57,628 bases of DNA from assembly GCA_022448315.1 (NCBI GenBank), contig JAKVCA010000035.1, forward strand, positions 1-57,628. The letters run 5' to 3'. This document shows, piece by piece, positions 15,780 through 23,547 of the stretch. The notes below the pieces were generated by a model, which had not been told where the DNA came from, did not search any database, and saw only the letters and a program-made list of their open reading frames with translations. Source of the stretch: Pirellulaceae bacterium (GTDB taxonomy: Bacteria; Planctomycetota; Planctomycetia; Pirellulales; Pirellulaceae). A program made the translations under genes and the position numbers. Within the stretch, counting starts at the first letter, position 1; each line of letters begins with the position of its first letter.

Positions 15780-16652
15780 CTAAACGGCGCTCTCTTCGTA
15801 CTCCTGACGCATTTCCATCAGTCTTTGACCGGCTTCCCCATTAACGAACTGCCTGACTCGCCGATCTCGAACTTCGTCGAGCTGATCGGGGCGTCCGTCA
15901 AAGATGATCTGGGGTTCATCTGGATCAAGTCGGGCTGCGGGATAAAGCATGATGACGCGGTCCGGGACTTTTCGAGTCGTCATCATGTCATGCGTAACAA
16001 TGATGCTCGTAACGGTGTAGTGATGCCGCGTACGCAGGATGAGTTCGTTGATGACATCACTCATGATCGGATCAAGGCCAGTGGTGGGTTCGTCGTAAAG
16101 AATGACTTCGGGGTTGAGAACCAGGGCCCGAGCCAGACCAACCCGCTTTCTCATACCGCCCGAGAGTTCGGCCGGTTTCTTTCGGATCACGGATTTGGGC
16201 AGGCCGACCTCAAAAAGCCTTGCCGTGATGATTTCGTCAATCTGAGCTGAGGTCAGTGCCGCATGCTGTCTGAGGGGAAATGCGACGTTTTGCCCGATGG
16301 TCATGCTGTCAAATAGTGCCGCGTTTTGAAACACGTAGCCGAACCGGATGTGTTGTCTTGCCAGTTCCTGTTCGTCCAATTGTCGCAGATGCTGTCCATC
16401 AAATCGAACGTGTCCTTTCGAAGGGTTGACGAGTCCAATGATCGTTTTCATCAGGACGGTCTTTCCACATCCGCTTTCGCCGATGATCGCCACGGTCTGT
16501 CCGGCGGGGATCGAGAGGGAAAGAGAACGGAGGACCGTCTGGCGACCAAACTGAACCGAAACGTCATTCAATTCAATCAAATGTTCCTCGGTGGTCTGCG
16601 ACATCGAGGGAGTTGCATCTTGGGTCGGAGGCATGCGAACCGTTCCAGTCAT
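15780..16652 (-). CDS. mlaF: MlaF-type ABC transporter ATPase
   Basis: This is a 290-residue protein. Walker A is GESGCGKT (58-65). The Q-loop region is FGYVFQNAALFDSMTIGQNV, the ABC signature LSGGMRKR with RVGLARAL, Walker B VILYDEPTTGLDP, and the switch His in IIVTHDM. The SGGMRKR form of the signature is typical of MlaF/Ttg2A ATPases that power lipid movement with MlaE and MlaD. The N-terminus could instead start at the internal Met17. It lies about 60 bp from mlaE and about 100 bp from mlaD on the same strand, so the three are one operon. Confidence 0.94.
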   Translation of the reverse strand: MTGTVRMPPTQDATPSMSQTTEEHLIELNDVSVQFGRQTVLRSLSLSIPAGQTVAIIGESGCGKTVLMKTIIGLVNPSKGHVRFDGQHLRQLDEQELARQHIRFGYVFQNAALFDSMTIGQNVAFPLRQHAALTSAQIDEIITARLFEVGLPKSVIRKKPAELSGGMRKRVGLARALVLNPEVILYDEPTTGLDPIMSDVINELILRTRHHYTVTSIIVTHDMMTTRKVPDRVIMLYPAARLDPDEPQIIFDGRPDQLDEVRDRRVRQFVNGEAGQRLMEMRQEYEESAV

Positions 16653-16715
16653 GACAGGATTGAATGGATGCCGAAGGCCTGTGTATCGATGGGATGACGT
16701 AACTTTAAAAGGGCG

Positions 16716-17588
16716 TTAGAGTAGCCGGGCCTGATCTGGCCAAAGTGTCCGGTACAACGCCTCAAGTTGAAGGTTCAATACCAGATCAAGAATAAGGATG
16801 ATCACAAAAGAGTATACAAAGGAGGCCGTGGCAGCTCTTCCCACTCCTTCGGCTCCTGCACCGCAGTAGAAACCTTGATAGCAGGCGACCAGTGCGATCG
16901 TGGCACCAAAGAAAAGACTTTTCGCCAGACCGGAGAAGATATCGAAGTTCATGACATACTCGGCCGAATTCGACCAGTAATGATGCATGTCGATATTGAA
17001 TACATAGACGCTGAACGAGTGGCCGCCGAAAACGCCCATGAAGTCGGCCATGATCGTAAGGACCGGGATCAGCAACAGGCAAGCCAACAGTCTTGGGACC
17101 ACCAGATAGTAAATGGGGTTGGCACCCATACTTGTTAGCGCGTCGATTTGTTCTGTCACCCGCATGGTGCCGAGCTCTGCGGCCATCGCGCTTCCCACTC
17201 GCCCCGCAAGCATCGTTGCGGCGAGGACGGGGCCCAACTCGCTGACCAGAGACTTATTGATGACAGCCCCCAGTCGGGTTTCGAGATTCATGGCTTCAAA
17301 CTGCCCGTAGCTGTGTACAGCTAGCACCATGCCAATAAAGGTTCCTGTCAAGGCGACGACAGGGAGACTCAAGACACCGACCTGATAAAAAGCCGGCCAG
17401 AGCGTTTCGGGTTTGGGAACTCGGAAAAGCATCCAGCGTAGGGTTTCCAGAACGAACATCGTAAAACGTCCGAGATCGGCAATAGAATCGATGGTGACGC
17501 GGCCCCAATCTGCAATCCAATCCGTGAGCGCAACAATGAACCCGGGTGAGAGATCCCGCGTCGTGTCAGAGGAGGGGAGAGTTGCCAT
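16716..17588 (-). CDS. mlaE: MlaE-type lipid ABC transporter permease
   Basis: The protein is about 290 residues and belongs to the MlaE/YrbE family. It has an N-terminal amphipathic segment, then about five membrane helices. The conserved family blocks are QFEAMNLETRLGAVI, SLVSELGPVLAATMLAGRVGSAMAAELGTM, EQIDAL..MGANPI and LACLLLIPVLTI. It forms the inner-membrane dimer through which phospholipids pass between the membrane and the MCE protein. The frame is open to a Met eight codons upstream (17612); Met at 17588 (MATLPSS) is taken here as the start. It is the first gene of the mlaEFD set. The PhoR-like kinase gene precedes it on the same strand. Confidence 0.92.
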   Translation of the reverse strand: MATLPSSDTTRDLSPGFIVALTDWIADWGRVTIDSIADLGRFTMFVLETLRWMLFRVPKPETLWPAFYQVGVLSLPVVALTGTFIGMVLAVHSYGQFEAMNLETRLGAVINKSLVSELGPVLAATMLAGRVGSAMAAELGTMRVTEQIDALTSMGANPIYYLVVPRLLACLLLIPVLTIMADFMGVFGGHSFSVYVFNIDMHHYWSNSAEYVMNFDIFSGLAKSLFFGATIALVACYQGFYCGAGAEGVGRAATASFVYSFVIILILDLVLNLQLEALYRTLWPDQARLL

Positions 17589-17725
17589 GGATTCCGTTCC
17601 GCGCATGCGCATGCCGAGTTTTTGACTTCATAAAGTATCGGCTGGCAAGATGGGCAGCTTGAAGCAAAGATGCGGATCACGTCGAGATTACTTGCTAGCG
17701 AATCTATTCTAGCTGTTCACTGAGG

Positions 17726-19615
17726 TCAGGCGTAAAAGTTGGGGACATCATTTTCCGGGGAAGGGGGGATGTCCACTTCTGCCTGTGTTTCAATTTTGAG
17801 GGGCAAGGTGACTCTGAAACAGGAGCCTCTTCCAATCTCGCTTTCGACCTCGATGGTACCATTCAGTGCTTGAGCGAGATGCTTGACGATCGATAGTCCT
17901 AGGCCTGTGCCTCCCAAGTCCCTGCTCCTCGCTTTATCAATTCGATAGAACCTCTCAAAAATGCGCGCCCGATGCTCCTTCGCGATGCCAATTCCCGTGT
18001 CTCGGATTTCGAGTTGGACGACCGCGTCCGTCGCCATGCATTTGACGTTCACGGTACCCCCGTCAGGCGTATATCGAATGGCATTGCTGATCAGATTATC
18101 CAAGATGGTACGAATCCCTTCTGCATCTCCTCGCATGGAGAGTGTCTTAGGGGCCTCCAGTTGAAGGTCGAGGGACTTCGATTCGGCAACGGGGGCAAAG
18201 GACTCGATGGAGTCGAGCAGGATGTTTCCTAACTCAAGAGCTTCGGCTTCAAATATTTCTTGCCTGGATTCAATCCTTGCAAGTTGGATCAAGTCGATAA
18301 TCAGCAGGTAGAGACGTTCGGCTTGCTCTTCAATTTCTCCAATAAAACGCCCTCGATGGTCGAGGTCGTCCATGGCTCCCAAACGCAGCGTCTCGGCGTA
18401 GGCTTTGATGGACGAAAGTGGGGTTTTAAGTTCATGTGAGACGTTGGCGACAAAGTCACTCCGCATCGTCTCCAATTGACGTAACTCAGTGACGTCGCGA
18501 GCCACGATCACCGTGCCGGCGGACGGGGTCTCTTTGAGGCTTGTGATGCGAATTGACAGGGATCGGCGAATTTCGCCACGCGTTTCAAACTCGGTTTTGA
18601 TCGTCTCTTGGGTGTTGAGTGCCACATCGAAACTGTTGAGGAGTTCCGGGAGGCGGATCGCTTCGTGAAGAAGGCGTCCAGCAATGCTTGATTTTTGAAG
18701 TGACAGCATGTCGCAGGCGGCAAAATTGGCAAATAGAATTTCGCCGTCGCCGTTAACGGCTATCACCCCTTCGACCATGCTGCCGAGAATGGCCTCGAGT
18801 CGACGGCTGTATTCTCTTAAGACGTTTTCCCTGTAACTGATCTCGGTTTGCATATGCAGAAAGGCGGACCGAAGAGCCGCCCATTCGGGTTGGCTTGAAT
18901 CGAGTTTCAGCGTGGCGTTCATCTTCCCGGCCGCGACTTGTTGGACAAAACTCATCAAAGGTTGGAGTGGTTTGATCAACCAGTTGGCAAGAAAATAGGT
19001 GGCAGCGCATCCCGCAATGCCCACCGCCAAGGTGAAGAAGAAAACATACCGCTGCACACCGCTGACGACTTGTTGAATGGTGGAATCGTCCACGCTTGTG
19101 CGAATGAGGTAGGAAGTGGCTTGTAAAGGTTCGACAAGGCTCTCAATCTCTGGTGAGCTGAGTCGGGAATTTTCGAGCTGCTTCAGGTTCTTGGGTCCGA
19201 CGCAAAAGTAAAGCTTATCGCACCTTTCGGTCGTACTGTAACGATAGCTCGAGCCACTTCCCTCCTTTTTCGCAACGCGTACTTCCTCCCGGTTGCCGTG
19301 ATTATTCATTGCGGAAAGGTCAGACGTCCAGCTATCCGCAATCACTGTGCCCTGAGGGGAGATGACCGTGATGCGAGTTTCATTCAGGCGACCTACACGC
19401 GCGGCCAGCTCACGAATCTGTCGCTCCTGCAAATCGGGATGACTCGACAGGTGGAGCTGAAGATCTTCGGCGATGCTCTCAAGTCGACTCTCAACTTGCT
19501 CCACCATCTGTTGGCGTTGGGTTCTACCCACAAGCCAAAGAAGTCCGATCACGAGGATCGAATGCACGATGAGGTAGCCCAGAAAGAATCTCCAAGCCAG
19601 GGGTAAGGAGTTCAA
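17726..19615 (-). CDS. PhoR-like sensor histidine kinase
   Basis: This is a 629-residue protein. Membrane helices at about 9-30 and 190-212 bracket a periplasmic sensor domain. A HAMP region (about 212-262) and a PAS domain (about 270-380, EAILGSMVEGVIAVNGDGEI) follow. The HisKA has phospho-His394 in NVSHELKTPLSSIKAYAETL, and the HATPase has NLISNAIRYTPDGG, DTGIGI and GTGLGLSIVKHL. This is the PhoR/VicK arrangement. It starts with TTG (MNSLPLAW). No response regulator gene adjoins it, so it is an orphan here; a PhoB-like partner would be elsewhere. The mla genes follow on the same strand after about 115 bp, and co-regulation is possible. Confidence 0.92.
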   Translation of the reverse strand: MNSLPLAWRFFLGYLIVHSILVIGLLWLVGRTQRQQMVEQVESRLESIAEDLQLHLSSHPDLQERQIRELAARVGRLNETRITVISPQGTVIADSWTSDLSAMNNHGNREEVRVAKKEGSGSSYRYSTTERCDKLYFCVGPKNLKQLENSRLSSPEIESLVEPLQATSYLIRTSVDDSTIQQVVSGVQRYVFFFTLAVGIAGCAATYFLANWLIKPLQPLMSFVQQVAAGKMNATLKLDSSQPEWAALRSAFLHMQTEISYRENVLREYSRRLEAILGSMVEGVIAVNGDGEILFANFAACDMLSLQKSSIAGRLLHEAIRLPELLNSFDVALNTQETIKTEFETRGEIRRSLSIRITSLKETPSAGTVIVARDVTELRQLETMRSDFVANVSHELKTPLSSIKAYAETLRLGAMDDLDHRGRFIGEIEEQAERLYLLIIDLIQLARIESRQEIFEAEALELGNILLDSIESFAPVAESKSLDLQLEAPKTLSMRGDAEGIRTILDNLISNAIRYTPDGGTVNVKCMATDAVVQLEIRDTGIGIAKEHRARIFERFYRIDKARSRDLGGTGLGLSIVKHLAQALNGTIEVESEIGRGSCFRVTLPLKIETQAEVDIPPSPENDVPNFYA

Positions 19616-20094: not shown

Positions 20095-21075
20095 GTGAAT
20101 CACGCATCGAATTCGCAAGTTGAAATCAATGGAGTGACCCTGACGCTAAGTCGGGACCATGAGTTTGATCACCGTTGGATCGGCCAAGAGGACGTGTTGA
20201 GGCAGTTGCTTGCTTGCTGGCTTGTGGTGGGTGAGGAGGATTTGCCTTTGACGCCCCGATTGATTGGCCCCCCGGGCATCGGGAAAACAGCGTTAGGGAT
20301 GGCGGCGACAAAGATCAGGAAACAACCGCTCTACATTTATCAATGTACCTCCGATACGCGGCCAGAAGATTTACTCGTCACACCGGTGCTTTCGGAAGAG
20401 GGGAAAATCGCCTACCACGCGTCGCCACTCGTTTCGGCCATGCTTACAGGGGGCGTTTGCATTCTCGACGAAGGGAACCGAATGAACGAGAAGTCTTGGG
20501 CCAGTCTGGCTCCACTACTCGACCATCGTCGTTACGTCGAGTCGATTGTGGCGGGGGTCACCATTAGGGCAGATCGTGAGTTTCGTTGTGCGGTCACAAT
20601 GAATCAGGACGAATCCACGTTTGAGATCCCAGACTACATTTTGAGTCGCCTGCAGCCTTCTCTGCACCTCAGCTTTCCAAACCGGGAAGATGAGTTGTCC
20701 ATCCTGAAATATCATTTGCCTTTTGCGGAAGCGGATGTGCTCGGAATGACGGTCGATTTTCTGCAGCGCGCGCACGAATTGAATCTTGATTTTTCTCCCC
20801 GTGATGGAATCAGCCTTTTACGTTATGCCATGAAACGCATGGCACAGGACTCAACCCACCCATTGAGTAAGGATGCGGCATGGCGGGAATCTGTGAAGGC
20901 GTGCTTGGGGGTGGAGGCGCTTGATCTGGAAGCTCTTGGTGAAAAACGTCGGCGTACGTTGGGCGGCAACGTAATGCCAACGGGGTTGGGAGACTTCTTC
21001 TTTCATGTCGAGGATCCACTCAGGCCAGAAGATGGTCTCGAGGACGAAGAATTCGACGTGGATGATCTCGATTAA
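20095..21075 (+). CDS. MoxR-type AAA+ ATPase
   Basis: This is a 326-residue protein starting with GTG. Walker A is GPPGIGKT (58-65), Walker [11 protein letters not shown] (121-130), and a sensor-1 Asn lies in AVTMNQDES. The [11 protein letters not shown] start and the DEGNRM Walker B (DE-x-N-R) are typical of MoxR/dynein-type AAA_5 ATPases, which act as chaperones, often with a VWA protein. The C-terminus is strongly acidic ([15 protein letters not shown]). No VWA gene is adjacent. Instead the next plus-strand gene, 38 bp downstream, encodes a large TraB/DUF5682-like protein, which suggests a dedicated client or partner (inference). Confidence 0.88.
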
Positions 21076-21113
21076 GGCGACGTTTCTCAAACCACGGCCG
21101 AAGTGGAGGCGAT

Positions 21114-22997
21114 ATGGACTCGGTGTTTCAATTGGGCCCCCGGATCACGATCTTGCCCGTGATTCACGGTTCGGGTGATTTTTCGTTTGAGGTTCGCCGG
21201 CGAATGCTTGCGGGTAAGTACGACGCTCTTGCTGTGCCCCTTCCAGAATCATTCCAGCAAGGAGTCGAAGCCGGCATTTTGGATTTGCCGAACGTTTCGG
21301 TCGTCGTGCAGGAACAACTTGAACCCTCTCAGAATTCGTGGCTTAAATCCGAGGCGGAAGAGGATGAAGGCGAGGAATTACGAGCCTTCAGTTATGTTCC
21401 CGTTGATCCTTGCCAACCGGTGATTGCCGCAATCCGTTCTGGGATGGAGGAACGTTGTCCGATTCATTTTGTCGACTTGGAGACCACCCATTTTGTGCCC
21501 TATGGCCAGGTCTTGCCCGACCCTTTCGCGCTTAAAAAAGTTTCGCTCGAACAGTTCTGCGCCAGTCTGTTGCCAGCGTTGGATCGTCCGGAACAGGAGC
21601 AACGCAAGCAGCGTATCCGCTATATGGCCCACCGTCTTCGGGAATTGGCGATCGATTACGAAAGAATCCTGTTTGTGTGCTCCGCAATGGATTGGCCCTG
21701 GATTCGAGAAGCCTACTTTGAGGCCCGTCCCCCCTGGCCTGAACCCGAGGACGCGTCCCCGCCTCAGGTTTACTCGGTCGATGAGCAATCGCTTTATTTC
21801 TTCTTGGGAGAGTTGCCTTTCATTTCTTCGCTGTACGAAACGGCGCGAGCGGAGTTGGAAAACGACGAAAATCTTGCGATTGACGGAGTCAAGGAATTGC
21901 TGATCTCGTCAAGGGACGCATACCGGCGAGAATTTCAGAGTGCCGCACGGAAAATTACACCGCAGAGTCTTCGACTTTGTTTGCAGTATGTGCGCAACTT
22001 GACCCTCATGCAAAGAAGGTTCTCTCCTGAGCTTGTGACGATACTGACGGCATGCAAGCAGACGATTGGTGACGCATTTGCATTGTCCGTGCTGGAACAG
22101 GCGAAAAAGTACTGTGTGGCAACCCCTCGCGACGCTTCTGCCGTACGTTTCGGCATCGGACAGGCCGTGCTGCCCGATCGACCTGATGAAGCGGCGTTCA
22201 TGATTTCGAGATTGCCGGGGCCACCGCTGGAGTGGCGGAATCTCGATCTGCAGCCCAAACCCACGGAGGAAGAAAAAAAGGAGTGGCAATACAACTGGGA
22301 TCCGAACCAGCAGTGCAGTTGGCCTCCTGAAGACACGAGAGTTGAAAACTTTCGTGCAACCATCTTCGATCGTGCGCGGCAGGCGATGGGCGCTGAACTG
22401 GCCAAGACAGAGAAATTCACCACAAGTCTCAAAGATGGAATTGATATCCGGGATACGCTGCGTCACTGGTACGAGGGCGATTTATACGTCAAAGAAGTGC
22501 CTCCAATTCGCGGCAACCTTCATGCGGCAGTGGTTCTGTTTGACAGCCCCTCCGACCCCCGCGAGTACCCGTGGCGAACGACGTGGTATGCCGAGCATGA
22601 GGAAGAGTCGACGCTCGCGTTTTACGCGACGAATTATCGAGAAAACATGGTCGGGCCAGGGATCTGTGCGGCTCAGTACGGTGGAGCCATGTTCCTTTTT
22701 CCCCCCGTTGCGATTCCCGATATCTGGCATGATCCACGTTTCGATTTCGCAGCAACTCTCGAAGAGCGATTGCTCGCGGCGACGTGTCGATACAGTCAGA
22801 GTCGGCATGTTGCGATCGTCAGCCCTCTTCCGCCTGGCCCCGCCTGGCGTCAGATCGCCAGGGAATACGGTAAACAGTGGGTCCATGTTCCTCTAAGCCA
22901 GTTCAATGAAGTGACGCTTGAGCAGATGCGATTGGTTCATGTTCTGAATGGTCATGAGGTTCGAAGCTACGCGGATCAGTTCATCCGACGTCACTGA
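21114..22997 (+). CDS. Large TraB/DUF5682-like protein, MoxR partner candidate
   Basis: This is a 627-residue soluble protein with no signal peptide or membrane helix. The N-terminal third looks like a ChaN/TraB/DUF5682-type fold: ITILPVIHGSGDFSFEV with a His early in the first strand (His18), then ALAVPLP, a VPVDPCQPVIAAIRSG segment and PIHFVDLE. A helix IRYMAHRLRELA is followed by ERILFVCSAMDWPWI, the R-x-x-x-M and VLVV-like pattern of that fold. An acidic stretch (EEDEGEE) lies near 80-90. The middle is helical, and the C-terminal 170 residues (from DTLRHWYEGDLYV) are not recognised. It is 38 bp downstream of the MoxR gene. Fold assignment is by motif only; the function is unknown. Confidence 0.7.
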   Translation: MDSVFQLGPRITILPVIHGSGDFSFEVRRRMLAGKYDALAVPLPESFQQGVEAGILDLPNVSVVVQEQLEPSQNSWLKSEAEEDEGEELRAFSYVPVDPCQPVIAAIRSGMEERCPIHFVDLETTHFVPYGQVLPDPFALKKVSLEQFCASLLPALDRPEQEQRKQRIRYMAHRLRELAIDYERILFVCSAMDWPWIREAYFEARPPWPEPEDASPPQVYSVDEQSLYFFLGELPFISSLYETARAELENDENLAIDGVKELLISSRDAYRREFQSAARKITPQSLRLCLQYVRNLTLMQRRFSPELVTILTACKQTIGDAFALSVLEQAKKYCVATPRDASAVRFGIGQAVLPDRPDEAAFMISRLPGPPLEWRNLDLQPKPTEEEKKEWQYNWDPNQQCSWPPEDTRVENFRATIFDRARQAMGAELAKTEKFTTSLKDGIDIRDTLRHWYEGDLYVKEVPPIRGNLHAAVVLFDSPSDPREYPWRTTWYAEHEEESTLAFYATNYRENMVGPGICAAQYGGAMFLFPPVAIPDIWHDPRFDFAATLEERLLAATCRYSQSRHVAIVSPLPPGPAWRQIAREYGKQWVHVPLSQFNEVTLEQMRLVHVLNGHEVRSYADQFIRRH

Positions 22998-23202
22998 TGC
23001 GGGCGGCGGCGGGAGTTAAATTTCTGAACAAATCACTCGACCTGACGTGTACAAATGGGCTCAAATATGCACGCTAAGCAAAGATGGATTTGTCATGCGA
23101 GTCACCAACTCTGAACTGCCCGCATTGGTAGACAGCAGATGTGCCTGACATGGGATAAGCGTCCATGGGTTTTAAAAGTCAATGGTTGTTCAGGAGTGCG
23201 TC

Positions 23203-23547
23203 ATGGATCGCATCGAGTTGTTCTCAAATCTAGTTGCCCTTGCCGCATCGGACGGCAAGTTCACCCCACAAGAAATTGAGTATCTAGCCATCAAGGCAGA
23301 GACTTGGGGAATTGAATCAGATGATGTGGACTCCGTTTTGATAGGCATGCAGGAGTCGACGTTGGAGGTGACGGTCCCACCGACTCGTCGCGAACGTGTG
23401 GAGTTGCTGACAGAAATGATACGAATGATGGCGATCGATGGTGACTTGGCCGAAAGTGAGAAAAATATCTGTGCCACAGTTTCCGCAACCATGGAATTCA
23501 CTTCGCAGGAATTCAATGAAATTCTCGATCAGCTCTTGAATCGCTAA
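23203..23547 (+). CDS. TerB-like small protein
   Basis: This is a 114-residue all-helical protein. Two similar segments (ALAASDGKFTPQEIEYL and MMAIDGDLAESEKNI) give the A-x-D-G-x-(x)-x-x-x-E pattern of TerB-like (tellurite resistance B / DjlA N-terminal type) domains, in which acidic residues bind metal. AGGAG six bases before ATG 23203 fixes the start; the frame is open a few codons further up. It follows the TraB-like gene by about 205 bp on the same strand and may belong to the same unit. Its stop TAA overlaps the stop TAG of the convergent dehydrogenase gene. Confidence 0.75.
   Translation: MDRIELFSNLVALAASDGKFTPQEIEYLAIKAETWGIESDDVDSVLIGMQESTLEVTVPPTRRERVELLTEMIRMMAIDGDLAESEKNICATVSATMEFTSQEFNEILDQLLNR

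Follow-up and report, generated by a model that had tools for sequence, protein, structure and literature searches.

The window, a 57,628-nucleotide stretch of a Pirellulaceae bacterium (GenBank assembly GCA_022448315.1, contig JAKVCA010000035.1; contig 56 of 126 in a genome of 5.0 Mb), carries a gene for a MoxR-class ATPase and, 38 bp downstream of it as measured between the open reading frames (ORFs), a gene for a 627-residue protein of unnamed family that we labelled BIG in this analysis. The ATPase and BIG are a real and coherent two-gene system of the MoxR-plus-partner kind, and not a reduced DUF5682 locus. The explanation that we favour, with a confidence somewhat above even, is a two-protein AAA+ machine in which BIG serves a MoxR-class ring motor as its dedicated partner, in the place otherwise taken by VWA proteins. 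A first-pass annotation had described three genes in a row on the plus strand, for a MoxR ATPase, the 627-residue protein and a TerB-like protein. The ORFs and the Pfam matches agree with that layout, and the motifs quoted for the start of the 627-residue protein are present in the BIG translation. Judged by conservation, the genes at 20095-23547 are real, since BIG relatives were found at 47-59% identity in 26 related genomes and at 27-62% identity at 26 loci from a genome collection. The two genes and the parts of BIG are placed as follows.

20095..21075, + strand: MoxR-class (AAA_5) ATPase, 326 aa (Pfam match, Walker motifs, C-terminal FFF motif and acidic tail)
21114..22997, + strand: BIG, 627 aa, unnamed family, co-inherited with the ATPase (ORF, relatives, co-occurrence)
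21114..21731, + strand: BIG residues 1-206, TraB/ChaN/TIKI-like domain homologous to the DUF5682 N-domain (profile comparison, predicted model)
21876..22109, + strand: BIG residues 255-332, helical bundle weakly resembling AAA+ lid and histone-fold bundles (structure comparison, Z up to 6.8)
22314..22994, + strand: BIG residues 401-627, the most conserved region, no known relative found, weak RNase H-like topology (alignment, model comparison)

Co-inheritance of the ATPase and BIG

The two proteins were followed in three samples: 60 related genomes with the window's own included, the 26 collection loci (L029-L054), for whose genomes completeness figures are absent, and 246 genomes drawn from the phylum, a few of which are shared with the related genomes. 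At least two of the 26 collection genomes recur among the related ones, and L047/L059 as well as L032/L079 are in each case one place. BIG is present in 27 of the 60 related genomes, and an ATPase orthologue was found in exactly these 27 (E <= 5.3e-146; 66-73% identity in the 26 other than our own) and in 0/33 of the related genomes that are devoid of BIG, where the best ATPase match had E 8.2e-13. All 26 collection genomes hold the orthologue (E <= 7.5e-83). BIG occurs in 38 of the 246 phylum genomes, and the sample divides into 38 genomes with both genes, two with the ATPase only, none with BIG only and 206 with neither (Fisher 1.2e-42, uncorrected for kinship). In the related and phylum samples BIG is present as one copy per genome, second rows being fragments of a single gene. 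The co-occurrence in all three samples bears out the earlier suggestion that the ATPase and BIG act as one unit. Membership of the 627-residue protein in a known metabolic family with no MoxR partner had been named as the outcome that would speak against this, and no such family was matched.

The ATPase lies immediately upstream of BIG on the same strand at 21 of the 26 collection loci and in 13 of the 27 relatives; read from coordinates, it is upstream in 24 of the 38 phylum genomes, two of these with about 1.3 kb between the genes. In the other 14 relatives the genes are unlinked and the pair still co-occurs, and all 11 BIG-bearing members of one family (f21) have the ATPase and BIG apart. 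No shared third gene was seen around the unlinked ATPase genes, which could be placed in 10 of the 14 genomes. Around linked pairs no neighbour recurs across phyla, as DNA ligase, amidohydrolase, kinase and other genes differ from one phylum to the next. Because co-occurrence holds when the genes are unlinked and the neighbours differ between phyla, the pair is a unit of inheritance for which adjacency is common and not required.

By record title the collection loci extend beyond planctomycetes to eight other phyla (Gemmatimonadetes, Omnitrophota, Nitrospirae, Nitrospinae, Latescibacterota, Tectomicrobia, Fibrobacteres/Chitinispirillia and one deltaproteobacterium), a spread that has to be read with misbinning in mind as all these genomes are metagenome-assembled. 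The arrangement is conserved and transferable: plasmid pS13 of Neochlamydia sp. S13 (Chlamydiota; L162, 8093-10806) bears the pair with a gap of 5 bp, annotated as 'AAA family ATPase' and 'hypothetical protein', with proteins 55% and 29% identical to those of the window and with unrelated genes on its sides. No BIG match was found in phage records, and among 44 pattern-bearing viral stretches there was not one that codes for a relative of the BIG C-domain. We found no description of the ATPase-BIG pair in the open-licence literature, nor as a family entry in Pfam, NCBIfam, PHROGs or PADLOC. Some BIG relatives (L144-L147 and L154) have matched spans of 656-884 aa, that is, insertions compared with the 627 aa of the window.

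The two ends of BIG

No entry of Pfam, NCBIfam, PHROGs or PADLOC matched BIG at E values up to 1, the PDB gave no match by sequence, and a scan of 26 family members returned scattered weak rows alone, the best with E 0.0047 and 0.009 from single members. Profile comparison was more informative. The N-domain is homologous to that of DUF5682 (hhalign probability 97.4%, E 1.1e-11, against 11 DUF5682 proteins), and from residue 205 onward the probability falls to at most 2.2%. At the level of Pfam, DUF5682 (PF18934) matched neither BIG nor anything in its own genome, and one of 26 relatives at E 0.31. The whole protein was modelled with a mean pLDDT of 82.9 and a pTM of 0.66, and Foldseek found no match to this model in the PDB at E <= 0.001. 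A second-look aligner, for which unrelated folds reach Z of about 6, placed residues 3-206 next to a Tetrahymena complex IV subunit (Z 10.4), ChaN (Z 8.2, rmsd 4.5 over 141 residues), HopBA1 (6.9), the erythromycin-esterase-like structure 3b55 (6.0) and PMT (5.9). A viral TraB-family model also matches BIG (E 1.4e-3, probability 1.00). These comparisons point to a ChaN-like fold of the TIKI/TraB superfamily, and with the DUF5682 homology they support the ChaN/TraB-like start that had been noted for BIG. According to PMC6254334, ChaN, HopBA1, 3b55 and PMT belong to the TIKI superfamily, which has a site of two His and two Glu, PMT being without it. Further along BIG, the AAA+ lid or histone-fold likeness of residues 255-332 is of a kind frequent for small helical bundles.

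Conservation of the hydrolase-type positions was analyzed in an alignment of 79 distinct BIG rows, from which L051 (broken frame), pieces shorter than 580 aa (first set) or 480 aa (second set) and identical copies had been dropped. The window's protein has H18, P42, S190 and D193, so the His/Glu/His site is not found in it, whereas H18, E42, G190 and H193 are complete in 18 of the 79 relatives, and His, Glu and GxxH are kept in all 11 DUF5682 proteins. His occupies position 18 in 72 of the 77 rows with a residue there. At position 42 the residue is acidic (Glu or Asp) in 22 rows and Pro, Ala or Ile in 57, and H193 goes along with the acidic residue (19/22, compared with 6/57 where it is missing). 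The BIG of Neochlamydia, read by eye, shows His, Glu and GxxH. In a tree of the family, two separate changes are needed to account for the 57 rows that have no acidic residue: 56 of them, the window's included, group together on a branch with a support of 100 (SH-aLRT, quick method), and the Fibrobacterota sequence L052 stands apart. The same 56 came together, with a support of 99, in a tree of the N-domain rooted on DUF5682, built on 197 columns of low identity. The most parsimonious account is a loss of the acidic residue on the branch leading to the window's clade. Parts of the site were probably lost more than once, because other Fibrobacterota keep the Asp and yet are without the full GxxH. 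In sum, BIG is like the TIKI/TraB/ChaN/erythromycin-esterase superfamily in its modelled N-domain and in the positions kept by those 18 relatives, and unlike it in the Pro and Asp that the window's protein has in place of Glu and the second His, and in its large, unrelated C-terminal part.

The C-terminal part is conserved to a much higher degree. Identity over the 79 rows reaches at least 95% in 44 of the 227 columns for residues 401-627, compared with 12 of 206 in the N-domain, and the conserved motifs comprise CSxPPED, DGxxxR, WxAE(H)xxES, GPG, YGG, PP, HxL, R617 and A620. They are kept in rows with and without the N-domain site, and Neochlamydia keeps most of them, so the C-domain appears to be the part of BIG under the strongest constraint. 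Near-invariant polar residues (D407, E411, D441, E494, E498, S499, H609 and R617) give it an active-site-like look. This favours a different division of labour, in which BIG is the client enzyme with its active site in the C-domain and the ATPase is a dedicated activase or maturation factor. Such an arrangement would also suit the self-contained look of the pair, around which a third gene recurs nowhere across phyla and which in Neochlamydia sits among unrelated genes. We nevertheless consider it unlikely, as BIG matches no enzyme family, as the C-domain model matches no solved fold significantly, and as it would leave out the VWA adaptor that stands between ring and client in NorQ-NorD and CbbQ-CbbO (PMC9976466).

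Folded alone, residues 336-627 gave a pLDDT of 83.0, and no significant structural match was found for this model by Foldseek (best E 0.056) or by VIA (best Z 4.3), in line with the earlier description of the C-terminal part as unrecognised. Among the weak matches were the Argonaute of T. thermophilus, HIV and SIV integrase, the C-half of UvrC, RuvC/RuvX, Prp8 and short-Argonaute systems, folds that we take to be RNase H-like. Many of the rows were of this type, and the predicted order fits, with three strands followed by helix-strand-helix-strand-helix. Possibly, then, the C-domain is an RNase H-fold module of the PIWI or integrase kind, with nucleic acid as the substrate of the machine or of the enzyme from which it arose. 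We regard this as improbable: the best scores are at the level of a common arrangement of strands and helices, pyridoxal phosphate enzymes such as CysK are also frequent among the rows, and the acidic residue at 477, which closes the first strand, is by eye not conserved. Piwi was found in just 2 of the 242 genomes, a number that does not suffice for a profile test.

The ATPase, its missing VWA neighbour and related systems

The ATPase belongs to the MoxR class by its Pfam match to AAA_5 (E 8.9e-19, 68.3 bits against a cut-off of 22), and its GPPGIGKT and ILDEGNR are Walker A and Walker B. Among proteins of solved structure, Midasin, CbbQ and NorQ come closest to this ATPase. The last 25 residues are acidic in the orthologues, with a net charge of -3 to -15 (32 rows, in which L047 and L059 are one gene), and the tail is spelled FFF or FFT depending on the lineage; the Neochlamydia ATPase is without it.

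Explanations of MoxR ATPases usually invoke a VWA partner, and the first-pass annotation had remarked that no VWA gene stands beside this one. For the neighbourhood this is confirmed. There was no VWA match in a Pfam scan of eight window proteins, none among the 25 of 173 families listed for 108 neighbour proteins of relatives, and none at E <= 1 in 880 called ORFs of ATPase and BIG loci searched with a VWA_CoxE profile, a narrow one built from four proteins of DUF5682 loci. Neither family scans nor structure comparisons matched the C-terminal part of BIG to VWA. The absence holds for the neighbourhood only, because VWA_CoxE matches exist elsewhere in the genome, on contigs 42 (27.9 bits, cut-off 26.4) and 61 (21.9 bits). 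Contig 61 also holds a distant paralogue of the ATPase, about 9 kb from its VWA_CoxE match.

NorQ-NorD and CbbQ-CbbO, besides Midasin the closest solved relatives of the ATPase, likewise combine a ring ATPase with one dedicated partner. In PMC9976466 the VWA domain of NorD is modelled in the centre of the ring and thought to hold the client via MIDAS, whereas here the protein inherited together with the ATPase is BIG, and no VWA domain was seen in it. A MoxR-class ATPase and a large conserved protein also occur in the MoxR-vWA ternary conflict systems of PMC7159879, VMAP among them; the BIG pair differs from these in having no adjacent vWA, a single copy per genome and no variable effectors that we could see. 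A role in defence or conflict was considered and rejected, as PADLOC gave weak matches only (ATPase E 0.0097, TerB E 1.9e-4, BIG none) and phage records gave no BIG match.

DUF5682 loci are the closest comparison for the pair as a whole. The first-pass annotation had stated that they pair with MoxR and VWA genes, and in the same phylum this is what was found: in two loci checked for both partners AAA_5 lies upstream and VWA_CoxE downstream, and a third, checked for VWA, has VWA_CoxE. This arrangement is of the E. coli yehLMP type. Among the planctomycete DUF5682 loci, L097, L100, L103 and L105 have open frames of 1137-1296 aa, and fusions with further domains may exist. Since both systems place an AAA_5 ATPase upstream of a TraB-fold protein with a homologous N-domain, and share the H/E/GxxH positions in part of the BIG relatives, the BIG locus could be a DUF5682-MoxR-VWA system in reduced or variant form, deprived of its VWA gene and with TerB as a metal sensor, as had been proposed. 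This proposal does not fit the comparisons. The two ATPases belong to different subgroups and share no more than a remote relationship (hhalign 89.5%, E 2e-6; best blastp E 2.9e-7 of 226 rows), the C-half of BIG has no counterpart in DUF5682, the window's clade has lost the site, neither the AAA_5 ATPase nor the VWA_CoxE neighbour typical of DUF5682 was found at the BIG locus, and one genome (G083) carries a DUF5682 locus and a BIG pair as separate loci. Together with the distribution of TerB given below, this makes the proposal very improbable.

The third gene of the proposed unit follows BIG.

23182..23547, + strand: TerB-family protein, 121 aa, a lineage-restricted accessory (Pfam match)

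Its ORF starts at 23182, an internal ATG at 23203 accounts for the 205-bp spacing given by the first-pass annotation, and its 3' end overlaps that of a convergent aldehyde dehydrogenase gene. The protein matches TerB (PF05099) with E 2.2e-8 and 34.8 bits against a cut-off of 24.4. TerB is directly 3' of BIG in 10 of the 27 relatives, one of these being weak (E 9e-6), as well as in L051; in G012, G008, G025 and G023, four of the 10, the ATPase lies elsewhere. It is the commonest neighbour family (5/108 at E 1e-3), and it was beside BIG in none of the 20 collection loci not named planctomycete, two of which are titled just 'bacterium'. A TerB relative (E <= 1e-6) occurs anywhere in 23 of the 27 BIG genomes and in 4 of the 33 others, and within the window's own family in 23/26 and 4/11, respectively (Fisher 0.0026, uncorrected). 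Conserved linkage of all three genes, which had been expected of a unit, holds in part: the ATPase and BIG are adjacent at many loci and apart in about half of the relatives, and TerB is linked in planctomycete loci only. TerB is here taken as a lineage-specific accessory in part of the Pirellulaceae-like group. On the other side of the pair, a divergent block on the minus strand (15780-19615) encodes an ABC ATPase, an MlaE permease and a PAS/HisKA sensor kinase; among the loci surveyed, MlaE and the kinase are both near the pair solely in L047/L059 and L051.

A proposed ring motor with an unusual partner

The mechanism that we propose for the two-protein AAA+ machine is drawn by analogy to NorQ-NorD, from which a physical complex, engagement of the ring by BIG and a remodelling function would all follow. 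The ATPase would be the ring motor. BIG would engage the ring and relay ATP-driven movement to a client, thereby taking the place of NorD, CbbO or a VWA_CoxE protein. The N-domain, with its degenerate hydrolase site in the window's clade, would probably serve in recognition or as a scaffold, and the near-invariant C-domain would be the working part that carries the essential function, with TerB as an accessory in some of the Pirellulaceae-like group. The client may be either BIG itself or a component common in cells, since no third gene travels with the pair across phyla, and we make no firm choice between the two.

Several observations weigh against such a machine. One phylum genome that is 99% complete in a single contig (G236; L140, 7888-8904) has the ATPase orthologue, and BIG went undetected there; this is the sole clean exception to the co-occurrence. 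A second (G065), 66% complete, also has the ATPase and no detected BIG. Both stayed empty when they were re-searched with another BIG query, a re-search that included no positive genome, the first query having matched in 38 others. The two genes are unlinked in 14 of the 27 relatives, Foldseek found no PDB match for the BIG model at E <= 0.001, and the ChaN-like rows come from the second-look aligner. The profile used to look for VWA_CoxE was narrow, and with the matches on contigs 42 and 61 a VWA protein encoded elsewhere in the genome could join the machine.

A more specific version of the proposal goes further. The C-half of BIG may be a new domain that has taken over the VWA role as ring-engaging partner, and an ATP-driven hydrolase of the TIKI type may, through loss of its site on one branch, have become a pure remodelling or activase machine that spread over many phyla. 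We offer this history tentatively, as a possibility that we lean against.

If the two-protein machine is correct, a widespread MoxR pair without an adjacent VWA protein would mean that an unrelated protein is able to take on the partner role. A large unnamed family, with its 79 distinct sequences aligned and no Pfam or NCBIfam entry found, would gain a testable setting. Within this family, the natural BIG variants that have a complete or a degenerate hydrolase-type site over the same C-domain would make the roles of the two parts separable by experiment.

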